Positions 1 to 38,070 of a stretch of 38,268 bases of DNA are shown one piece after another. Position 1 is the first letter of the stretch; each line of letters starts with the position of its first letter. Source of the DNA: Deltaproteobacteria bacterium. GTDB lineage: Bacteria > Desulfobacterota > Syntrophia > Syntrophales > JACQWR01. The stretch lies in assembly GCA_026388415.1 (NCBI GenBank), contig JAPLJV010000033.1:1-38268 (forward strand), written 5' to 3'. The translations under genes and the position numbers were made by a program. The notes beneath the pieces were generated by a model, which was given only the letters and a program-made list of their open reading frames with translations, ran no database searches and was not told where the DNA came from.

Positions 1-34
1 ATGTTTCAATCCACGCCCCCGCGCGGGGGGCGAC
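1..34 (-). CRISPR. First (leader-proximal) type I-C CRISPR repeat, array truncated by window edge
   Basis: Read on the minus strand, positions 34 to 3 form a 32-nt unit beginning GTCGCCCC and ending GTGGATTGAAAC. This is the classic subtype I-C repeat with a GC-rich hairpin (GCCCCC / GGGGGC) and the ATTGAAAC 3' handle. Only this repeat and the first two bases of the first spacer are inside the window, so the array runs off to the left. It lies 185 bp beyond the cas2 stop, in the same transcriptional direction as the cas genes, so it is the repeat next to the leader. Confidence 0.93.
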
Positions 35-219
35 TTACATCTCATAACGTACTACAATTACAAATAATTTATCCTATATTCCGCGTAGATACTTAATAGA
101 GGTCAATCCAATATGCACTTGTCAAAGAACACCATCGCAATACTTTGTTATATCAGCGTGTTATCAGTAGCGCGAATCCCCCTGGAAAATCATGGCTGCC
201 TGGGGTTCGCGCGTGCCGT
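35..219 (-). promoter_or_regulatory. CRISPR leader with inverted repeat just after cas2
   Basis: This 185-bp stretch between the cas2 stop and the first repeat has no gene. The part next to the array (about 35-165) is AT-rich, as leaders usually are, and should hold the pre-crRNA promoter and the integration-guiding sequence. At 170-212 there is an inverted repeat with arms GCGCGAACCCC and GGGGATTCGCGC (one bulged base, about 20-nt loop), starting 8 nt after cas2. It has no T-run behind it on the minus strand, so it is not a canonical intrinsic terminator. The leader role is inferred from position. Confidence 0.75.
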
Positions 220-2450: not shown

Positions 2451-3083
2451 TCATGTCTCGCTTAACATCCGCGTCAGGTAGCTCTTTACCGACCGCTGCT
2501 TCTGGATCGTCTTCGGCAGGCATTCGGCCATCAGAGAACAGCTTTCGCACCGCTTCGCATAGACTGGCTTGGGGGTCTGGCCGGAGGCGATCAGATCGTG
2601 TGCTCGCTGGGCCGTTTCCTCCGTCTCCCGTCGCAGGTCCTCGTCGAAGACGACGTCGAAGCGGTGTCTGGTCTGGCCGTAAAAGAGCGCCCCCTCCGGG
2701 ATCGCAATGTCAAGCATCTCTTCCAGGCAGATCGCCTGGGCGCAAAGCTGAACCTTATCGCAATCGTCCGCTTTGGGTTTCCCTCGCTTGTACTCCACGG
2801 GAAAGGGCAACCAGGCCCCGTCCGGCAGCCGGTGGAACTCCACGACGTCGGCCTTGCCGATCAGCCCCAGGCGTAGCGAGCGAAGCGACACGCCATAATC
2901 AATGCGGACGTCGCGCCGGGATTCATGGCTTTCGTCATGCACCCGCTCGTGCATGATCCGGCCCTCGGCGGTGAAGCGGTTCTCTGTCCATACCTGTTCC
3001 GTGTAGATCAGGGCACACTGCCGCTCGCAGAACACGATATGCTGCAAGGCTGAGAGAGGGAGAAGGTCGTCGATTGCGTACAT
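2451..3083 (-). CDS. cas4: CRISPR-associated exonuclease Cas4 (type I-C)
   Basis: Encodes 210 residues. Visible Cas4 signatures: the first iron-sulfur cysteine in FCERQCALIY (Cys19), the GRIMHERVH helix, Asp in GKADVVEF, the EYKRGK nuclease motif, the downstream VQLCAQA glutamine helix, and the C-terminal cluster KRCESCSLMAEC. It is thus a PD-(D/E)XK nuclease with a 4-cysteine Fe-S cluster. In I-C systems Cas4 trims prespacer ends, selects the PAM side and associates with Cas1. The gene begins 7 nt after cas7 and is intact; the next gene downstream is the BRO-N gene rather than cas1. Confidence 0.96.
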   Translation of the reverse strand: MYAIDDLLPLSALQHIVFCERQCALIYTEQVWTENRFTAEGRIMHERVHDESHESRRDVRIDYGVSLRSLRLGLIGKADVVEFHRLPDGAWLPFPVEYKRGKPKADDCDKVQLCAQAICLEEMLDIAIPEGALFYGQTRHRFDVVFDEDLRRETEETAQRAHDLIASGQTPKPVYAKRCESCSLMAECLPKTIQKQRSVKSYLTRMLSET

Positions 3084-3090
3084 GTTTCCC

Positions 3091-3948
3091 TTATATCTTC
3101 TCTTCTAAGGTGACGCCCGCCGGCACATTCCGGTTGACGACCACCTCGTAGTCGGAAAATGTCCGTGGCGGTTTTGTGGCCTCCGTAGCCCGTTGCACCG
3201 TTACCAGTTCAAATAACTTATGTGCAGGAGCGTTACCAAGGGCGGATTCGTGTTTGAAAACGATCAGTTTCCTTGCATTCATCTTGCCCCGTGCCGCAGA
3301 ATGATCGTGATCGAACATATTGACCAGGGCCTCCCAGAGAAGTTTCAGATCGTCGTCCGAAAAACCTGTCTGGTCGGCGAGATGGGCGGACACGTAACCT
3401 TCCGTCCGATAGAGGGCATAGGGCACGATATGCTTGCGACCCATCATTCTTTCTTTTTCTCTCTCAGCCTCTGTTTCGACAGCGACGCGTGTGATAGTTA
3501 TTTCCATAGGAACGATGGCATCTATGCTGCGCCCAAAATTGAATTGAACGGGACCACGTACCTGTCCGCAGTTATTTTCTTTCATCATCATTACGGCACC
3601 AAAGGTGCGGACATCAAAGCAATTTTTACACATAAATTTACGGCCCAATTCGGCAGCCGTTATTTTGTCTTTTTTCTCTTCATCAGTAAGCGATTGATAG
3701 GCCCCTCCTCTTTCGGTCGTAAGAACAGATTTTTCTCTTACATAGATTTTGTAAGGGGACTGATTTTCCTTCACGATCTCGACAAAATTACGGATCTTTC
3801 TCTTCAGGCAGACATCGGTTACGAGACCATAACTTGTCTCCGGATCGATGCGCGGCATATTGCCTGCGTCGGGGTCGCCGTTTGGGTTGCCGTTCTCCAC
3901 ATCAAAAAGATACACGAATTCGTAACGGTTCTTGATTGTCTCGCTCAT
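3091..3948 (-). CDS. cas7: Cascade backbone protein Cas7c (Csd2), type I-C
   Basis: Encodes 285 residues from the ATG at 3948 (MSETIKNRYEFVYLFDVENG). This start has the ribosome site AAGGAGG at good spacing. An upstream in-frame ATG would add 29 residues running back into cas8c and is less likely. The NGNPNGDPDAGN loop, CLKRKIRNFVE and TFGAVMM are hallmarks of the Csd2/Cas7 family, which forms the crRNA-binding helical backbone of the I-C Cascade. The start lies 1 nt beyond the cas8c stop, so translation is probably coupled. Confidence 0.95.
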   Translation of the reverse strand: MSETIKNRYEFVYLFDVENGNPNGDPDAGNMPRIDPETSYGLVTDVCLKRKIRNFVEIVKENQSPYKIYVREKSVLTTERGGAYQSLTDEEKKDKITAAELGRKFMCKNCFDVRTFGAVMMMKENNCGQVRGPVQFNFGRSIDAIVPMEITITRVAVETEAEREKERMMGRKHIVPYALYRTEGYVSAHLADQTGFSDDDLKLLWEALVNMFDHDHSAARGKMNARKLIVFKHESALGNAPAHKLFELVTVQRATEATKPPRTFSDYEVVVNRNVPAGVTLEEKI

Positions 3949-3949
3949 C

Positions 3950-5665
3950 TTATTCACCCTCCTTCTGGTTTTCCGATTTAACATAAAAGGCCTGTCGCTG
4001 ATGGTAGTAGCCGATGGCAAACATTCCCTGGTCATCGAGACTCAGATGGGCGGGAAATTTTTCGATGCCGCACATAATCTCCTCGATCATTTTGTCCATC
4101 CGTTCCCCATACACCGCCTTCTGAATATGGTGCTGAGAGAGTCGGAGGAGCTGGGGAAAGACGACGCTGGGCGTTGCGGATGCCGAGCCGTAGAAACGGT
4201 CTTTGATAGTGGTGTTTGCACCGGGGATGGCGTCCTTCTGTGCCTTCTCCAAGACGGCGAAGAGCCTTCCCAGACGATAGGCGATATTGGTTGATTCCTT
4301 ATCCAATGACATCATAACCTCCTCTTTGCTTTGATGGATGCGATGCTTTCTGTTCAGACACGCCTTGATCATGGCGGCCCGTAGATAGTTGATTGTCTGA
4401 TCCGCCCGGATGCGCCCGATGAGTGTAGCAAGCAGACTCTGTGGGTAGGTCGTACCAGCGAGAATGGAACGTATGATCGCCCCGGCCAGCAGGGGTGGAA
4501 TGTTATCGGTTTTTCCCTGGACGGCGGTTTCTTTCAGCAGTTGCCACATGCCGGGAAATTCCGGATCTCTTTCGCTCCTGACAATGGCGATGTCCCGAAA
4601 GTGCTGGCCGATCTTTTCGCTGATATCTGCCACTGTACTGACATGCCAGAATCGAACAGAAAGCCGTGAGACATTGAGCGACAATCCCAGGATATAGAAT
4701 TGAAGGTCGGGATCGCCGATATCGGGAAGCGGTTTCCCGTCTCTTGTCGCAGCGAGAAAGAGGCGGACGCTGGACAGATCGGAGGCATCGTCCCTGGGAT
4801 CGAGGATAATTCCCATGAATCCCTCGATGGGCGATGGCCGCTCTGTCCAGAAGACCGTCGTGGCATCGCCGATCCGGAGCTTCTGACGGCTTTCAAAGCG
4901 CAGCAGATGATTCAGGGCGGTGGTATAGGCAAAGGCGGCAGTTTCACCAACGGGGGCATTGAAATTCTGCTTTTTATCATAAGAGAGAAAAGCGTCCAGA
5001 TTGAAGGAAACAATGCTGGCTCCGGCCGGCTGTGCCCCCTTCCCCTGCACTCCTTTGATGGCCGGGTGTAGACGGGCGATCGGCGTACCTTCTCCGCTGA
5101 CCAGACAGGTGGCAATAACCTCGGATGCCTCTTCCGCGCAGTATCTTCTCCAGGCCTGCTGCACGTCGGAGTGGTCATGGATATACATTAGCTCGCCGTC
5201 AAGTTGGAAGATGAGGTTGGCCCCTGCCATCTCGTCCCAGTGTTCCAGCGTGGGGGCGTCTTCGGGCTTCCAGAAATCAAGGAAGTTAAGAGTCGCCTGC
5301 ATGCCCGGGTCTTGCATATTATCGCCGAGATCATGATGAAGTTGCCGAAAAGCCTCAAAACATTTTAAGGCACGTGCTTCGTTTCCCTTGGCGTTCCGAC
5401 CAAGGACATAGCCGGAATTGTCCCACATGAAATTCGGTTCGATATCTACTGAACGCTTCTTGCCGATCACCGGAACCGTGAGGGATACGGGCACCGGCTT
5501 GTTCTTCGGTTTCTCTCGGAGATCCCGAATCTGGATAAGTTTACCATCTTTGTTGATCACCAGAGCGAAATGGATCTTCTGCTTGCCGAATCCGAGCAGA
5601 GGAATTTCCTCCTGAGGATCGTCTTTCAGCCTTTCATAATACTGGTTCAACGCCTGGAGGATCAT
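3950..5665 (-). CDS. cas8c: Type I-C Cascade large subunit Cas8c (Csd1)
   Basis: Encodes 571 residues, typical for Csd1/Cas8c. Recognised by the N-terminal [13 protein letters not shown], the central [22 protein letters not shown] region, and the helical C-terminal part with [16 protein letters not shown]-like sequence ([19 protein letters not shown]), which in I-C also gives rise to the internally translated Cas11c in studied systems. Cas8c recognises the PAM and helps recruit Cas3. Its ATG overlaps the cas5 stop (ATGA, 4 nt), indicating translational coupling. No internal Cas11 start was demonstrated here. Confidence 0.95.
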
Positions 5666-6315
5666 GCCATCACCCCCTTTCCGTTCAGGGGGGGCACGTC
5701 GATGATGCCGTCGCGCATGAGCGCCCGGAAGAACTTCGCCTCCATCGCCTTTTCAAAGTCGATGTCATTGAGCATCCAACCGAGATCCCTCTCTCCTTCC
5801 AAGGCAGATAACGGGATATCATCGGCGACCGGTTCAAAATGGGCGGGAAATTCGCGGCAACCCAGATACGGATGGTGAAAACACTGCCCTTTCGCAGCGC
5901 GTCGATCGAACATCTCCTTGTGCTTCATGGGATTGTTGTCTTCGCTTCCCGTGAAGGCAAAGTGGGCCTCGATCACATAGGCCACATCGCGCAGGATCAG
6001 CGCCGCCCGCTGCTGCCGGTCCTCCTCGATGAAGACCTCCACCGGGGAGCAACCGTCATTCATTGCCTTTTTCACCGTGCCCGACGCCAACTTACCCGCC
6101 AGTTCGTTGCGCCGGATGTTATCAAACCGGATAGGCTTGAGAACATGGATCCGGTGAACGACCCAGGCAATGGCCGGTTTCCAGTAAATGGCTTCCAGAA
6201 TTCCGCGTGCCGCCGAAGGGGTTATGACGTCGTAACTGACCCGCTCGACCTTCATCTCAGGACGGGTGAAGCAGGCGTACTCGCCCCATACTTTCAGCTT
6301 TACTCCGTATGACAT
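5662..6315 (-). CDS. cas5: Cas5c (Cas5d) crRNA-processing endoribonuclease, type I-C
   Basis: Encodes 217 residues. The N-terminal [16 protein letters not shown] and [18 protein letters not shown] match the RAMP fold of Cas5c. In I-C, which lacks Cas6, Cas5c cuts the pre-crRNA. Tyr44 (EAIYWKP) and the Lys131-His132 pair (PMKHKEMF) correspond to the catalytic Tyr/Lys/His described for Bacillus halodurans Cas5d (Y46, K116, H117), so the enzyme looks active. It also holds the crRNA 5' handle in Cascade. The gene starts 34 nt after cas3 and its stop overlaps the cas8c start. Confidence 0.95.
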
Positions 6316-6349: not shown

Positions 6350-8539
6350 TCACGTAATCAGACTTTCGATTCTATGAAATGTCGGTTCTTCGGGACAAAG
6401 TCCCAGATCCTCATGATACAGATCCCGGTTGATCAGGACGTTGTATTGCTCATGCAGGCACTCGACGCTGCCCGCGTTGAGCAGTCCGTGCAATATCTGT
6501 GGAAAGACCTGGATGGTAAAGCGCTGGGCCTTGCGGGCGGCCGCTGCCGGGAAAGCGCTGTAGCGGAGTTCCTCGACGATTTGTTCGGCTTCACCGTTCC
6601 AGGGGATGATGATTGGTACCATCCCCTCCTCGATGATCTTGAACTTTTCTGCAACGACCCTAAAGGGGAAATCGCCAGCCATGGCGCCCTCGGCGAGATC
6701 AGCGAGAATCTGGTGTTGATCCAGTGCCGCTCCCTTCAACCAGTAGAGCTGACGGAAATAATCATGAACCGCTGACAGGGACAAGGGGTCCGCATGATGG
6801 CGCAGTACCGCCTCCGTCGTCTCGGCGGTCTGCCGAAAGTAGCCGGGTGGAAGGCCAGTCTCGGGAGTAAAGACGAAGACCTTGCCATTTTCCGACAGTT
6901 TTCCTTCCCGATTGCAGCGGCCAGCGGCCTGGGCAATGGAATCGACGCCGGCAATTGACCGGAAGACAACAGGAAAGTCGATGTCCACTCCGGCCTCCAC
7001 CAGTTGCGTGCTGATTACGCGGCAGGGTTCACCGCTTGCCAAGGCCGCTCTTATTCTATCGAGAACCTCCGTCCGGTGTGCCGGGCACATCAGGGCGCTC
7101 AAGTGGAAGTGTCCTTCCTTATCCGACAGACGTTCATAGATCTGTCGGGCATGTTTACGGGTATTGACGACGCAAAGTACCTGACGGTATTCGTTCAATC
7201 TCTCCGCTAACTCATCATCGGCCAGAGAAGGTAATTTCGCGGTGTCCACCCGTTTGAAGGTTTCATAAAGCGCTGCCGGATCGGGGATGATCTCCCGCAC
7301 GCCTTCCAGGCCGTCCTTAAAAGTTTCCGATTTGGAAAGCGCCGGCTGCGTGGCGGTGCACAGAACGATCGTCGTCCGGTAGTTCAGAGCGAGTTCCCGG
7401 AGGACTTCGAGAGACGGCTTTAGGAGGGGCACGGGCAGCATCTGCGCCTCGTCGAGTATAACGACGCTGTTGGCAATCCGGTGGATCTTCCGGCAGCGGG
7501 AGGAGCGGCAAGCAAACAGAGATTCGAAGAATTGGACATTCGTCGTCACGATCAGCGGTGCTTCCCAGTTCTCCGCAGACAGACGGGAGCGATGATCCTC
7601 ATCTTCCGGTTCAAAGTTGCTGTGGTGTTCGAGAACGGCGTCCTCGCCCAGGATGTCCCGGAAGACGGCGGCATTCTGTTCGATGATGCTCGTATAGGGG
7701 ATCACATAAATCACCCGTTTTTTTCCGAAACGGCGTGCGTGTTTGAGGGCGAAGGCCAGCGAGGAGAGGGTTTTGCCGCCGCCAGTCGGTACCGTCAGGG
7801 AAAACAGACCTGGCGACAGGTCGGCTGCAGAGAGACATTGTTTCAGGATTGCGGTACGCCGCATGTTAATGGGGGTTGGTGCTGCCGACACGGTCAAGTG
7901 GTCTAAATGCACTTGGAGATTTTCGTGTAATTCGTCGAGAGAAGGGTAACCCTTTCTCCAACCAGATTTTGCCGGGTCCATAAACGCTTCCGTATCCAGG
8001 AAATCAGCATCGACCAGGCAGGAGTAAAGCATCCGGGCAAAGAAGGAAATCTGAAAGCAGGAGCGTTTTTTATCGAGAGGGAAGGGAAGTCCTTTGATAA
8101 TCGGCAGATCGAGAATCCAATCCGGACAGGCATCGCAGGAAGGGATTGCCTTTTCTAACCTTTTCGTGAGACATGAGCCGTCATTGGACTTTCCGTCCTG
8201 GAGCCCGGCGTGGTGACCGGCAATTGTATAGGCCAGAAGTTTCCCCTCGTTCTTTGCTTGTTGAAAAGCATGTTTTGCCCCTGCTGTCGAGTGATCCACG
8301 CGGCCGGGTTTGGTCTCGATATGAGAGTCATCATCGTTGGCCGCCAGAAGATATTTCTGGAATTCTTTAGAGTATTTTCCGACATCATGCCACAGCCCCG
8401 CCAAGTAGCCCCAATCCCCCGCCCCAAATTCGTCGGCGCCGGAGCGTGCGAGTTCGGCCACCCGACTGAGGTGATCCTCCAATAGCTGCCAGTTTTCTGG
8501 CGGTTCCCCGTCTTTTGTATGTCCGTAATAACGATGCAA
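6350..8539 (-). CDS. cas3: CRISPR-associated helicase/nuclease Cas3 (type I-C)
   Basis: About 729 residues if read from the TTG at 8539. The HD nuclease domain shows LWHDVGKYS (His51-Asp52) and AGHHAGL. The SF2 helicase domain shows TGGGKT (Walker A, about 252-257), ILDEAQ (motif II), CTATQP (motif III) and [12 protein letters not shown] with [10 protein letters not shown] (motifs V/VI). Cas3 is recruited by Cascade to unwind and degrade target DNA. Start choice: the TTG follows GGAGGAG lying in the last codons of the exonuclease gene and gives the N-terminus [11 protein letters not shown], usual for I-C Cas3. In-frame ATGs at 8569 and 8626 would overlap the exonuclease more deeply and have poorer ribosome sites. 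Confidence 0.94.
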
Positions 8540-8544
8540 TTCCT

Positions 8545-9120
8545 TTATCTCTCCTCCATCGCCAGCCATATCCTGGCAACCATGCGGGCATCGTCCAGGG
8601 CGCGGTGAGTTTGTTTCCGGGGACACGATGCGCTCCCTTCGGGCTTCCGCATCATGTCCCCGTTCGTGGCGGTATCGCTGCCGAGGTGCCGATAGACGGT
8701 TTCCAGTTTGTGATTCCTCAGATGCGGGAAGCGGCTCCGGCTCATTTCGAGGGTGCAGACGTGCGGGCGGTGGAATCTTGTTCCCAGCAGTTCGTATTCG
8801 CGGCGGAGGAAACCAAGATCAAACCGGGCGTTATGCGCCACGAGGATGCTGTCCCGGATGAAAGCCTCCAATGCCGGGAAGACTTCTTCCGGCGTCGGTT
8901 GTCCGATGAGCATCTCATCGGTGATGCCGTGAATCTGCGATGCACGAACGGGAATCTCTCTCGGTATCTGAATCAAGGTGTTGAATTCAGCCATTAAGGT
9001 ACCGCCTTCCAGGGCAACCGCGCCGATCTCAATGACCCGGTCGCCTTTCCAGGGCGAGAGGCCGGTTGTTTCCACGTCCAGGACAACATATCTTTCCTGC
9101 CGGTTTACTGACTGTATCAT
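8545..9120 (-). CDS. DEDDh 3'-5' exonuclease (DnaQ/PolC epsilon-like), leader gene of the cas operon
   Basis: Encodes 191 residues forming one exonuclease domain. Exo I is LDVETTG (Asp15, Glu17), Exo II is VAHNARFDLGFL (Asp101), and Exo III is HRALDDA (His172, Asp176), so all DEDDh residues are present. Residues 154-169 (GDMMRKPEGSASCPRK) are not part of the family; they are the translation of a 48-bp palindromic repeat inserted between the last helix and Exo III. The cas3 start follows 5 nt after the stop and its ribosome site lies inside this gene, so the two are coupled. DnaQ-like exonucleases trim prespacers in some type I-E systems, which makes a role in adaptation plausible but unproven; general DNA repair is the alternative. 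Confidence 0.9.
   Translation of the reverse strand: MIQSVNRQERYVVLDVETTGLSPWKGDRVIEIGAVALEGGTLMAEFNTLIQIPREIPVRASQIHGITDEMLIGQPTPEEVFPALEAFIRDSILVAHNARFDLGFLRREYELLGTRFHRPHVCTLEMSRSRFPHLRNHKLETVYRHLGSDTATNGDMMRKPEGSASCPRKQTHRALDDARMVARIWLAMEER
8615..8662 (-). repeat. 48-bp palindromic element, copy 1, in frame inside the exonuclease gene
   Basis: On the minus strand the element reads from GGGGACATGATGCG through a GC-rich centre to CGCATCGTGTCCCC, so the ends pair in a long stem. A second copy at 10126-10173 differs at only two central positions. The length, 48 bp, is a multiple of three and in this frame has no stop, adding 16 residues to the exonuclease. REP-like elements read in frame are known from Rickettsia palindromic elements; no relationship is claimed. 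Confidence 0.85.
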
Positions 9121-9142: not shown

Positions 9143-10111
9143 CTATGTGCGATATTTTTTTGTCATTTTTTTGATTTCTTTTTTGACCCTGTCCCTCAGC
9201 CATTTCGGTTCCCGTACTTCCACTTCTGACCCGTGCCGGAGGATCTCCATCAGGATTTCGGCTTCATGAGAAACGGGGATGGTCAGTTGCAGGGCGCCGT
9301 CCGGGAGTTCCTCTGTCTTCTGATCCCGATGCCAAACCTGCCCCCGTATCCACCGCGAGCGGACCGGCGAAAATCGCAGGACAACGGGGAAGCTCTCGCG
9401 GTTCTGAAATATCCCGAACGTGTTGGTGAGAAAGGGTTTCCATTCCGCTTCGGGACGGGGAGAAAATTGCTCGTCTGAAACCCGGCAGTCGCTGATGCGG
9501 GAAAGGAGAAAATCGCGCCAGTCTTTGCGCATCCGGCAATAAGCAATCAGATGCCAGGCGCCCATGTAATTCACCAGATGGTGCGGTTCCACCGTTCTGG
9601 CTGTCGTTCGGTTGCCGGCGGGCGAGTAGTAATTGAAGGCAAGCAGGCGGAACATCAACAGGGCATTGCTGACGCATCCGAACAACAAGGGGTTGGCAGG
9701 GGTAACTTCGCTGACGCGGAAGGAAAAGGCCTGGTCGGGATCGGTATGATGGGGCACATTTTCTGAGAGCACGGCGCCGAGCTTCCCGGCGATGTTCCCC
9801 AACTCGTCGCCCAACGGGCCTGCGGCTGCGTCGCTGAGCAGCTTTTTCGATATGAGGAGCGACAGGAGTTCCTTTTCCTGGAGACGCAGGACGGGAAGCT
9901 GGAAGGTGGGATCAACGTAATAGAAGCCCCTCCGGGCGGGGTCATATTCAAGGGGGGCATGCAGCCGGCAGCGGAAGAACTCGATGGAACGCTGGGCCGT
10001 CTTAATGGAGCATTCAAACTGCCGGGCCAGGGTTGACGCATTGGGGAAGTTATGTTTTTTCGCTTCGCTGTCAAACCAGAAAAACCGTTCCAGGAAAAGT
10101 TGCTCCCCCAT
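9143..10111 (-). CDS. WYL-domain transcriptional regulator of the cas operon
   Basis: Encodes 322 residues. An N-terminal winged helix-turn-helix (about 22-60, ASTLARQFECSIKTAQRSIEF) is followed by the WYL domain (about 145-212, with LAFNYYSPAGNRTTARTVEPHHLV, GAWHLIAYCRMRKDWRDF and SRISDCRV) and a C-terminal WCX region. WYL domains sense ligands, probably nucleic-acid-derived, and many sit beside defence genes; the WYL protein Sll7009 represses a I-D CRISPR locus in Synechocystis. The ribosome site AAGGAG precedes the ATG. The stop is 22 bp before the exonuclease start, so it is probably first in the WYL-exonuclease-cas operon and may autoregulate it. Confidence 0.93.
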   Translation of the reverse strand: MGEQLFLERFFWFDSEAKKHNFPNASTLARQFECSIKTAQRSIEFFRCRLHAPLEYDPARRGFYYVDPTFQLPVLRLQEKELLSLLISKKLLSDAAAGPLGDELGNIAGKLGAVLSENVPHHTDPDQAFSFRVSEVTPANPLLFGCVSNALLMFRLLAFNYYSPAGNRTTARTVEPHHLVNYMGAWHLIAYCRMRKDWRDFLLSRISDCRVSDEQFSPRPEAEWKPFLTNTFGIFQNRESFPVVLRFSPVRSRWIRGQVWHRDQKTEELPDGALQLTIPVSHEAEILMEILRHGSEVEVREPKWLRDRVKKEIKKMTKKYRT

Positions 10112-10125
10112 ATGCCGCTCCTTAC

Positions 10126-10173
10126 TTCCGGGGACACGATGCGATCCCTGCGGGCTTCCGCATCATGTCCCCG
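10126..10173 (-). repeat. 48-bp palindromic element, copy 2, in the 5' region of the WYL gene
   Basis: Differs at two of 48 positions from the element inside the exonuclease gene (8615-8662). It sits directly upstream of the ribosome site (AAGGAG) of the WYL regulator, within the probable 5' untranslated region of the cas operon. It would form a long RNA hairpin there and could affect translation or mRNA stability of the regulator. Confidence 0.85.
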
Positions 10174-10183
10174 TTTTCCCCAT

Positions 10184-14431: not shown

Positions 14432-14455
14432 TTTTTCACCCGAAGCTGCATCTCA

Positions 14456-14492
14456 AATCCCCCTCAATCCCCCTTTGCTAAAGGGGGAGATT
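14456..14492. repeat. C-rich palindromic repeat (AATCCCCC...GGGGGAGATT)
   Basis: Arms AATCCCCCT and AGGGGGAGATT flank a TTTGCTAA-type centre. One of several copies of the same family in the window (15873, 32801, 32908, 37956). Lies between the ribD start and the RmlC-like gene. Confidence 0.75.
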
Positions 14493-14618
14493 ACTACCTA
14501 CCTCCTACACCATATCATGACCCGAGCGCCATTAAAATCAGTTTATCATCATGTTTCTCTTGTGGCCTTTTTCTGAACTATGCTATATGAATCGAAAATT
14601 ATTGAAGGAGCATCAGCT

Positions 14619-32800: not shown

Positions 32801-32975
32801 TTCAAATCCCCCTTGCTCCCCCTTTTCTAAAGGGGGAAATTTTGGTTCCCCTCTTTGGCAAAGAGGAGGTAAGGGAGATTTGCGCCTGAAAATGCACATA
32901 AAATCCCCTTTGTTGAAGGGGGCAATTTTTTTATTCCCTTCTTTGGCAAAGAGGGGGTAGGGGAGATTTGCTTTA
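32801..32975. repeat. Two C-rich palindromic repeats in tandem, downstream of tonB
   Basis: Two complex units (about 32801-32880 and 32908-32972) each combine CAAATCCCCC/AATCCCC arms, a CCCTTT..TAAAGGGGG inner hairpin and a CCTCTTTGGCAAAGAGG hairpin ending in GGGGAGATTTGC. Same family as 14456, 15873 and 37956. The rest of the 480-bp gap between the adhesin start and the TonB stop has no recognisable gene. Confidence 0.75.
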
Positions 32976-37955: not shown

Positions 37956-38070
37956 CAAATCCCCCTCAGTCCCCTTTTACTAAAGGGGGATTTAATGATT
38001 CCTCCCCCCTTTGCTAAAGGGGGGTATTATGGTTCCCCTCTTTGACAAAGAGGGGTTAGGGGAGATTTTA
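37956..38070. repeat. C-rich palindromic repeat cluster between the SDR and thiolase genes
   Basis: AAATCCCCCTCAG, CCTTTTACTAAAGGGGGA, CCCCTTTGCTAAAGGGGGG and CCCTCTTTGACAAAGAGGGG hairpins follow one another. The largest copy of the dispersed C-rich family in the window; it fills most of the 206-bp gap between two genes that are probably co-transcribed. Confidence 0.75.

Follow-up and report, generated by a model that had tools for sequence, protein, structure and literature searches.

Background

The conversion of mobile DNA into protein sequence is a known but under-charted route. Short palindromes that are read in frame are known from Rickettsia, as the Rickettsia palindromic elements (RPE; PMC10969869). 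The sections of PMC3733652 on which I draw also report intragenic REPs for Opitutus terrae, Thauera, Xanthomonas, Stenotrophomonas and other bacteria, with recB among the targets. A preliminary description of the DNA treated here regarded protein-coding palindromic elements as well established for Rickettsiales alone; with such intragenic REPs already published for other bacteria, this was too narrow. A further group of relevance are the TIRYTs, which the consulted sections of two papers characterize as Y1 enzymes of subclass 2.1 with terminal repeats of the consensus GGGGWSAS (PMC3733652, PMC6006769). In the literature that I searched, nothing relevant was found on in-frame palindromes in Deltaproteobacteria or Syntrophus.

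In this study I examine a palindrome with GGGGAC...GTCCCC ends that lies in frame within the exonuclease gene of a CRISPR operon from an uncultured member of the Syntrophales. I consider it quite probable that this palindrome is a non-autonomous mobile element, related to the terminal inverted repeats (TIRs) of Y1/HUH transposases, mobilised in trans and tolerated in a surface loop of the enzyme.

Results and discussion

The window, by which I mean the whole stretch of 38,268 nucleotides that was analysed (G000:C33), is part of a 2.79-Mb genome in 66 contigs. Matches to Pfam and PADLOC profiles reveal a minus-strand type I-C operon in the order WYL-exo-cas3-cas5c-cas8c-cas7c-cas4-(BRO-N)-cas1. 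The first gene codes for a WYL-domain regulator (9143-10111, minus strand, profile matches), and the second for a CRISPR-associated DEDDh (DnaQ/PolC-like) 3'-5' exonuclease of 191 amino acids (8545-9120, minus strand; Pfam RNase_T, 8.5e-33; PADLOC DEDDh, 1.1e-41). The catalytic residues D15, E17, D101, H172 and D177 of this exonuclease are intact and are invariant in an alignment of 34 sequences. The cas genes, likewise assigned by profile matches and all on the minus strand, are cas3 of type I-C (6350-8626), cas5c (5662-6315), cas8c (3950-5665), cas7c (3091-4035), cas4 (2451-3083) and cas1 (523-1554). The open frame of cas3 extends upstream into the palindrome; judged from the sequence, its true start is probably an ATG near 8571, which would overlap the end of the exonuclease gene.

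Some further features of this region were observed. The contig start (window 1-35, ATGTTTCAATCCACGCCCCCGCGCGGGGGGCGAC) resembles a type I-C CRISPR repeat, and after it follows a minus-strand frame of 96 amino acids (220-510) that is Cas2-like in size and sequence; the contig end probably truncates the CRISPR array. The BRO-N-domain gene (1601-2422; PADLOC candidate PDC-S13, E 1e-114) has an unusual site between cas4 and cas1, and contains a 41-bp near-perfect palindrome (2225-2265), but no clear insertion is seen in the match of its protein to the PDC-S13 profile.

The element in the exonuclease gene occupies positions 8618-8662 (no strand assigned) and consists of a 43-nt core (8619-8661) with a closing C-G pair, coding for residues 154-168 or thereabouts. 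Translation bears out the place and frame given in the preliminary description: residues 154-169 read GDMMRKPEGSASCPRK and are followed by QT and then by the catalytic motif HRALDDA, which thus begins two residues further on. A palindrome is indeed present there; its length, given earlier as 48 bp, is to be reduced to a self-complementary part of 45 bp (C-GGGGAC...GTCCCC-G), which is imperfect and has an unpaired centre. The TTCC at 8615-8618 (plus strand) has no mirror on the opposite side. This TTCC is the common 5' flank of the element and may represent a target or cleavage tetranucleotide. In 100 dinucleotide shuffles of the window, a 43-mer of the palindrome pattern with at most three mismatches was found not once. 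The coding strand folds strongly as RNA (-34.6 kcal/mol, z -7.1). That the element lacks stop codons and has a length divisible by three needs no special explanation, as copies that shift the frame of a working gene would be lost.

The orthologues are consistent in lacking the insert. In all eight close orthologues (45-57% identity; loci L035-L038 and L048-L051, four from genomes of the order and four from a database scan), the spacing between the RHL-like motif and HRALDDA is exactly 10 residues, against 25 here, and in more distant exonuclease relatives it is below 10. This amounts to a net gain of 15 residues (45 nt), one fewer than the 16 assumed at first; in this comparison, made at the protein level, the gain differs by 2 nt from the 43-nt core. 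The orthologue in genome G020 (L035) lies in an exo-cas3-cas5c-cas8c cluster and has no insert; a degenerate relative of the palindrome is found about 130 bp upstream of it. No orthologue that shares the residues without the palindrome came to light, since none of the approximately 20 aligned exonuclease relatives carries them. The possibility that the residues are native protein sequence is ruled out by the eight empty orthologues; together with the related copies in the genome and the order, these uphold the original view of a dispersed element inserted in frame.

Modelling of the loop, as proposed in the preliminary description, was carried out with AlphaFold2, for which 34 sequences from the window and from database loci were aligned, and gave a disordered loop in an otherwise intact fold. 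The mean pLDDT is 89.8; residues 151-170 have a pLDDT of about 50 and no secondary structure, while most of the remaining fold exceeds 95. The model matches PolC and epsilon exonucleases as well as the DEDDh chain K of PDB 8fyc (TM 0.73/0.84). Most likely, the insert is predicted by this model to form a flexible surface loop between the helix of residues 139-150 and the Exo III helix of residues 174-190.

A second copy of the element is located at 10129-10173 (no strand assigned), upstream of the WYL gene. Over the 50 bp that can be matched (8615-8664 and 10126-10175) there are two differences (96% identity), in agreement with the number reported earlier; its placement simply outside coding sequence needs amending, as the core stops 19 bp short of the WYL start codon (ATG) and adjoins the ribosome-binding site. 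The transcribed strand of both copies folds strongly as RNA. A search of the genome yielded these two full-length copies, both in the one CRISPR operon, and, within the open frame for a fragment of an ABC-transporter ATPase, a 27-nt form that lacks the central loop. Gene conversion or duplication within the locus, with the leader copy 1.5 kb away as the source, might have produced the exonuclease copy without any transposition, as the only two full copies of the genome are both here and are alike with their flanking TTCC and GTT included. However, related copies are scattered across the order, and this genome has other families of the same build in dispersed places, so that I regard a local origin as unlikely.

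Across the order, the exact element family is present in 9 of 155 genomes, with at most six copies of 43-47 nt in each, and most full-length copies of the exonuclease subfamily lie outside recognisable genes. Among 18 related copies that could be oriented, TTCC directly precedes GGGGACA in 10, with each of its four bases kept in 13 to 15; on the opposite side of the palindrome the first base is a G in 14, and further bases are less conserved. Neither a GTAG nor a CGTC tag was found in the flanks and ends of these 18 copies. A second palindromic repeat family, of the CCCCCTTTGCTAAAGGGGG type, occurs in clusters in the window (14454-14500, 32803-32935 and 37956-38068).

The exonuclease palindrome is one among many of its build in this genome. 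Palindromes of the form GGGGACA...TGTCCCC, belonging to several families, occur 20 times, against about 0.5 expected from base composition, and a reversed control pattern has no match in the same genome. Alignment with orthologues reveals in-frame insertions in recB (8 residues, seen also against E. coli RecB), a ThiI-like gene (8 residues), pyrK (14 or 15 residues, in a variable loop), hflX (26 residues) and a DUF4922 gene (12 residues). Including the exonuclease, six unrelated genes thus carry an insertion, with six different palindromes of three kinds. These intragenic insertions were established by homology, and a codon-score scan served only to pick candidates; it missed the exonuclease because the stop codon follows just about 70 nt past the element. 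For the palindromes in selA, the ABC ATPase, a helix-hairpin-helix protein and an SDR epimerase, the in-gene assignment was made by reading frame alone. An SDR epimerase of this genome (L017:377-1594) is further extended, between residues 215 and 282 of its core, by an insert several dozen residues long (GTRNGGDGGKTENEGTRSQFLTKLGQAPSPTFPSGHVPHFP).

The location of the exonuclease loop, two residues before the catalytic HRALDDA, in a gene of a cas operon and with the frame kept open, could suggest that the insert was recruited for a function, for instance to tune the exonuclease through contact with Cas1-Cas2-Cas4 or through a substrate channel near the active site. Yet no orthologue has a comparable loop, the loop is modelled without structure, and the similar elements in unrelated proteins argue for neutral tolerance. 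I consider recruitment very unlikely. The simplest reading of the sequences is that the added loop is tolerated; the exonuclease would then be active with its insert, and the insert would have no function.

If the element is mobile, a Y1 transposase would be the presumed mover, with single-stranded hairpin DNA as its substrate. The genome contains four Y1 (PF01797) genes, and three of these have GGGGAC ends that recur there as solo palindromes. The Y1 gene on contig C57 has the ends GGGGACACCATACTAAATT...AATTTAGTATGGTGTCCCC, which recur in a solo palindrome at a distance of 6 kb. The gene on C24 is bounded by TATTCCGGGGACATAATACC...TATTATGTCCCCGGAATA; its end GGGGACATAATACC recurs solo, with solo forms in C24 and C56. 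The gene on C50 is cut by the contig end and has GGGGACACCTTACTA at one end only, which matches a solo palindrome in C54. The two intact Y1 proteins (222 and 255 amino acids) have the motifs NHVH and YVEMNP or YVETNP (YV(E)xNP) and are of the subclass 2.1 type; against the NCBIfam REP-type equivalog they score 63 and 58 bits, under its cut-off of 80. A search for a Y1 gene with the ends of the exonuclease subfamily, GGGGACAYGATGCG, gave no match, either at this genome's four Y1 genes or in eight element-carrying genomes (26 Y1 matches, flanks of 23 loci). The idea that the exonuclease subfamily is part of this genome's own Y1 elements is ruled out by the ends of the latter. Of the element arms, GGGGACAC fits the motif GGGGWSAS, and GGGGACAT departs from it in the last base. 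By analogy, the exonuclease element may work like a TIR-type element, and I do not file it as a proven member of the TIRYT group.

A contrast between occupied and empty sites comes from a related genus, g50, in which a 27-nt palindrome, GGGGACACCTTGCNGCAAGGTGTCCCC, reaches a copy number of 48. Its length is a multiple of three, and it is free of stop codons in all six frames. In a survey of gyrB that did not depend on the motif pattern, a first site is occupied in seven of ten g50 genomes (G140, G135, G132, G138, G139, G133 and G136) and empty in the other three (G141, G134 and G137), and the gyrB element is present as well in G126, a genome from a neighbouring genus. In G132, gyrB contains another copy farther along the gene, at a second site that is empty in all the others. 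As the g50 copies were first picked by exact pattern, conservation is judged here solely from the gyrB survey; the genomes compared appear to be mostly metagenome-derived and fragmented. Comparing occupied with empty versions, the net gain is 21 nt at gyrB site 1, 12 at gyrB site 2, 15 in a 1040-aa protein, 9 in a phosphoesterase, 21 in a HAD protein and 27 in an ABC protein. The net gain is usually below 27 nt, and native codons have therefore been lost at most sites, either at insertion or later. In some g50 species, the HAD and ABC genes have decayed or related forms at the corresponding position. Imperfect forms like GGGGACACCTTGCTGCAAGATGTTGCC recur in ABC and HAD genes (L317, L325 and L312), representing decay or a related subfamily. 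With respect to the reading phase, eight of ten hand-counted g50 events read GDTLxQGVP (binomial p 0.003, counted after the fact).

From these patterns I can only tentatively suggest that the GGGGAC palindromes of the Syntrophales enter genes in a replacement-like manner, the 27-nt element of g50 usually with the loss of 6-18 nt of native codons, that the 27-nt form may have been selected as harmless in proteins, and that integration could proceed via short target similarity, for example by annealing of single-stranded DNA; such a scheme is possible, though doubtful.

In the gyrB of G136 (L294), a paired change from GACACC...GGTGTC to GACGCC...GGCGTC keeps the palindrome intact. Alternatively to mobility and tolerance, the palindromes could act chiefly as mRNA hairpins that tune expression, in the operon leader and upstream of cas3, with the peptide as a by-product. 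The joint G136 changes would fit such a role, as would the strong folding of the transcribed strand of both operon copies and their positions, one adjoining the WYL ribosome-binding site and the other some 50 nt upstream of the likely cas3 start. However, the other genes of the genome show no such pattern of placement, and the G136 change could equally stem from the insertion of a variant copy; a chief role as hairpins therefore seems rather improbable to me.

As the genome is metagenome-derived, in 66 contigs and with no species of the same genus among the relatives searched, an error of assembly or binning, or an untranslated relic in a dead gene, was also considered. This is hardly credible, as two bases distinguish the operon copies, the reading frame is undisturbed to either side of the insert, the catalytic residues are preserved, and the same kind of insertion is found in independent genomes, gyrB included.

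I thus favour the reading of a short, non-autonomous mobile element, akin to the terminal inverted repeats of Y1/HUH (RAYT/TIRYT-type) transposases, which would have been mobilised in trans. One copy would have landed in the short loop between the helix ending at residue 150 and the Exo III helix that bears H172 and D177. There the frame would have stayed open, so that the enzyme gained, and probably tolerates, some 15 residues in the form of a flexible loop; the other copy would have come to lie in the leader of the same operon.

These observations show that the Syntrophales (Desulfobacterota), too, have in-frame palindromic insertions as in Rickettsia, though of a different repeat class. In essential genes such as gyrB, one and the same site is found occupied in some related species and empty in others. 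Within one group, two questions could hence be tested: how Y1-linked palindromes insert, and how frequently mobile DNA becomes tolerated protein sequence.

Comparison with known systems

The TIRYT/TIRtron repeats, as presented in the consulted sections of PMC3733652 and PMC6006769, resemble the elements described here in their GGGGAC ends, their partial or complete self-complementarity and their solo copies, which form small families. The same genome contains Y1 genes with the NHVH and YV(E)xNP motifs, and other palindrome families there share their ends with the genome's own Y1 genes. The likeness ends with the exonuclease subfamily, whose ends were found at none of the Y1 genes examined, and with the in-frame location, as those same sections do not describe solo TIRs as in-frame inserts.

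A second likeness is to the intragenic REPs with GTAG or CGTC tags, which in the sections of PMC3733652 used here are also short palindromes read in frame in unrelated genes, with recB among them; in contrast, the elements of this study have GGGGAC/GTCCCC ends without either tag. The Rickettsia palindromic elements are likewise dispersed palindromes that have turned into in-frame protein segments in many unrelated genes (PMC10969869). However, RPE are about 150 bp long and end in CGTC, according to the consulted part of PMC3733652, while the palindromes here measure 24-47 bp, have another sequence and belong to another phylum.

The host protein itself, by its PADLOC DEDDh match and its similarity in fold to chain K of 8fyc, is comparable to the DEDDh and Cas2-DEDDh trimmers of CRISPR adaptation, as far as these are covered in the part of PMC10284694 consulted. 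It differs in that it stands alone and belongs to a type I-C operon with a cas4 gene, and its role as a trimmer is putative. Measured against these systems, and within the literature consulted, what appears to be new is the repeat class, with GGGGAC ends and neither a GTAG nor a CGTC tag, its occurrence in this group of hosts and in a gene of a CRISPR operon, and the contrast between occupied and empty sites in gyrB.
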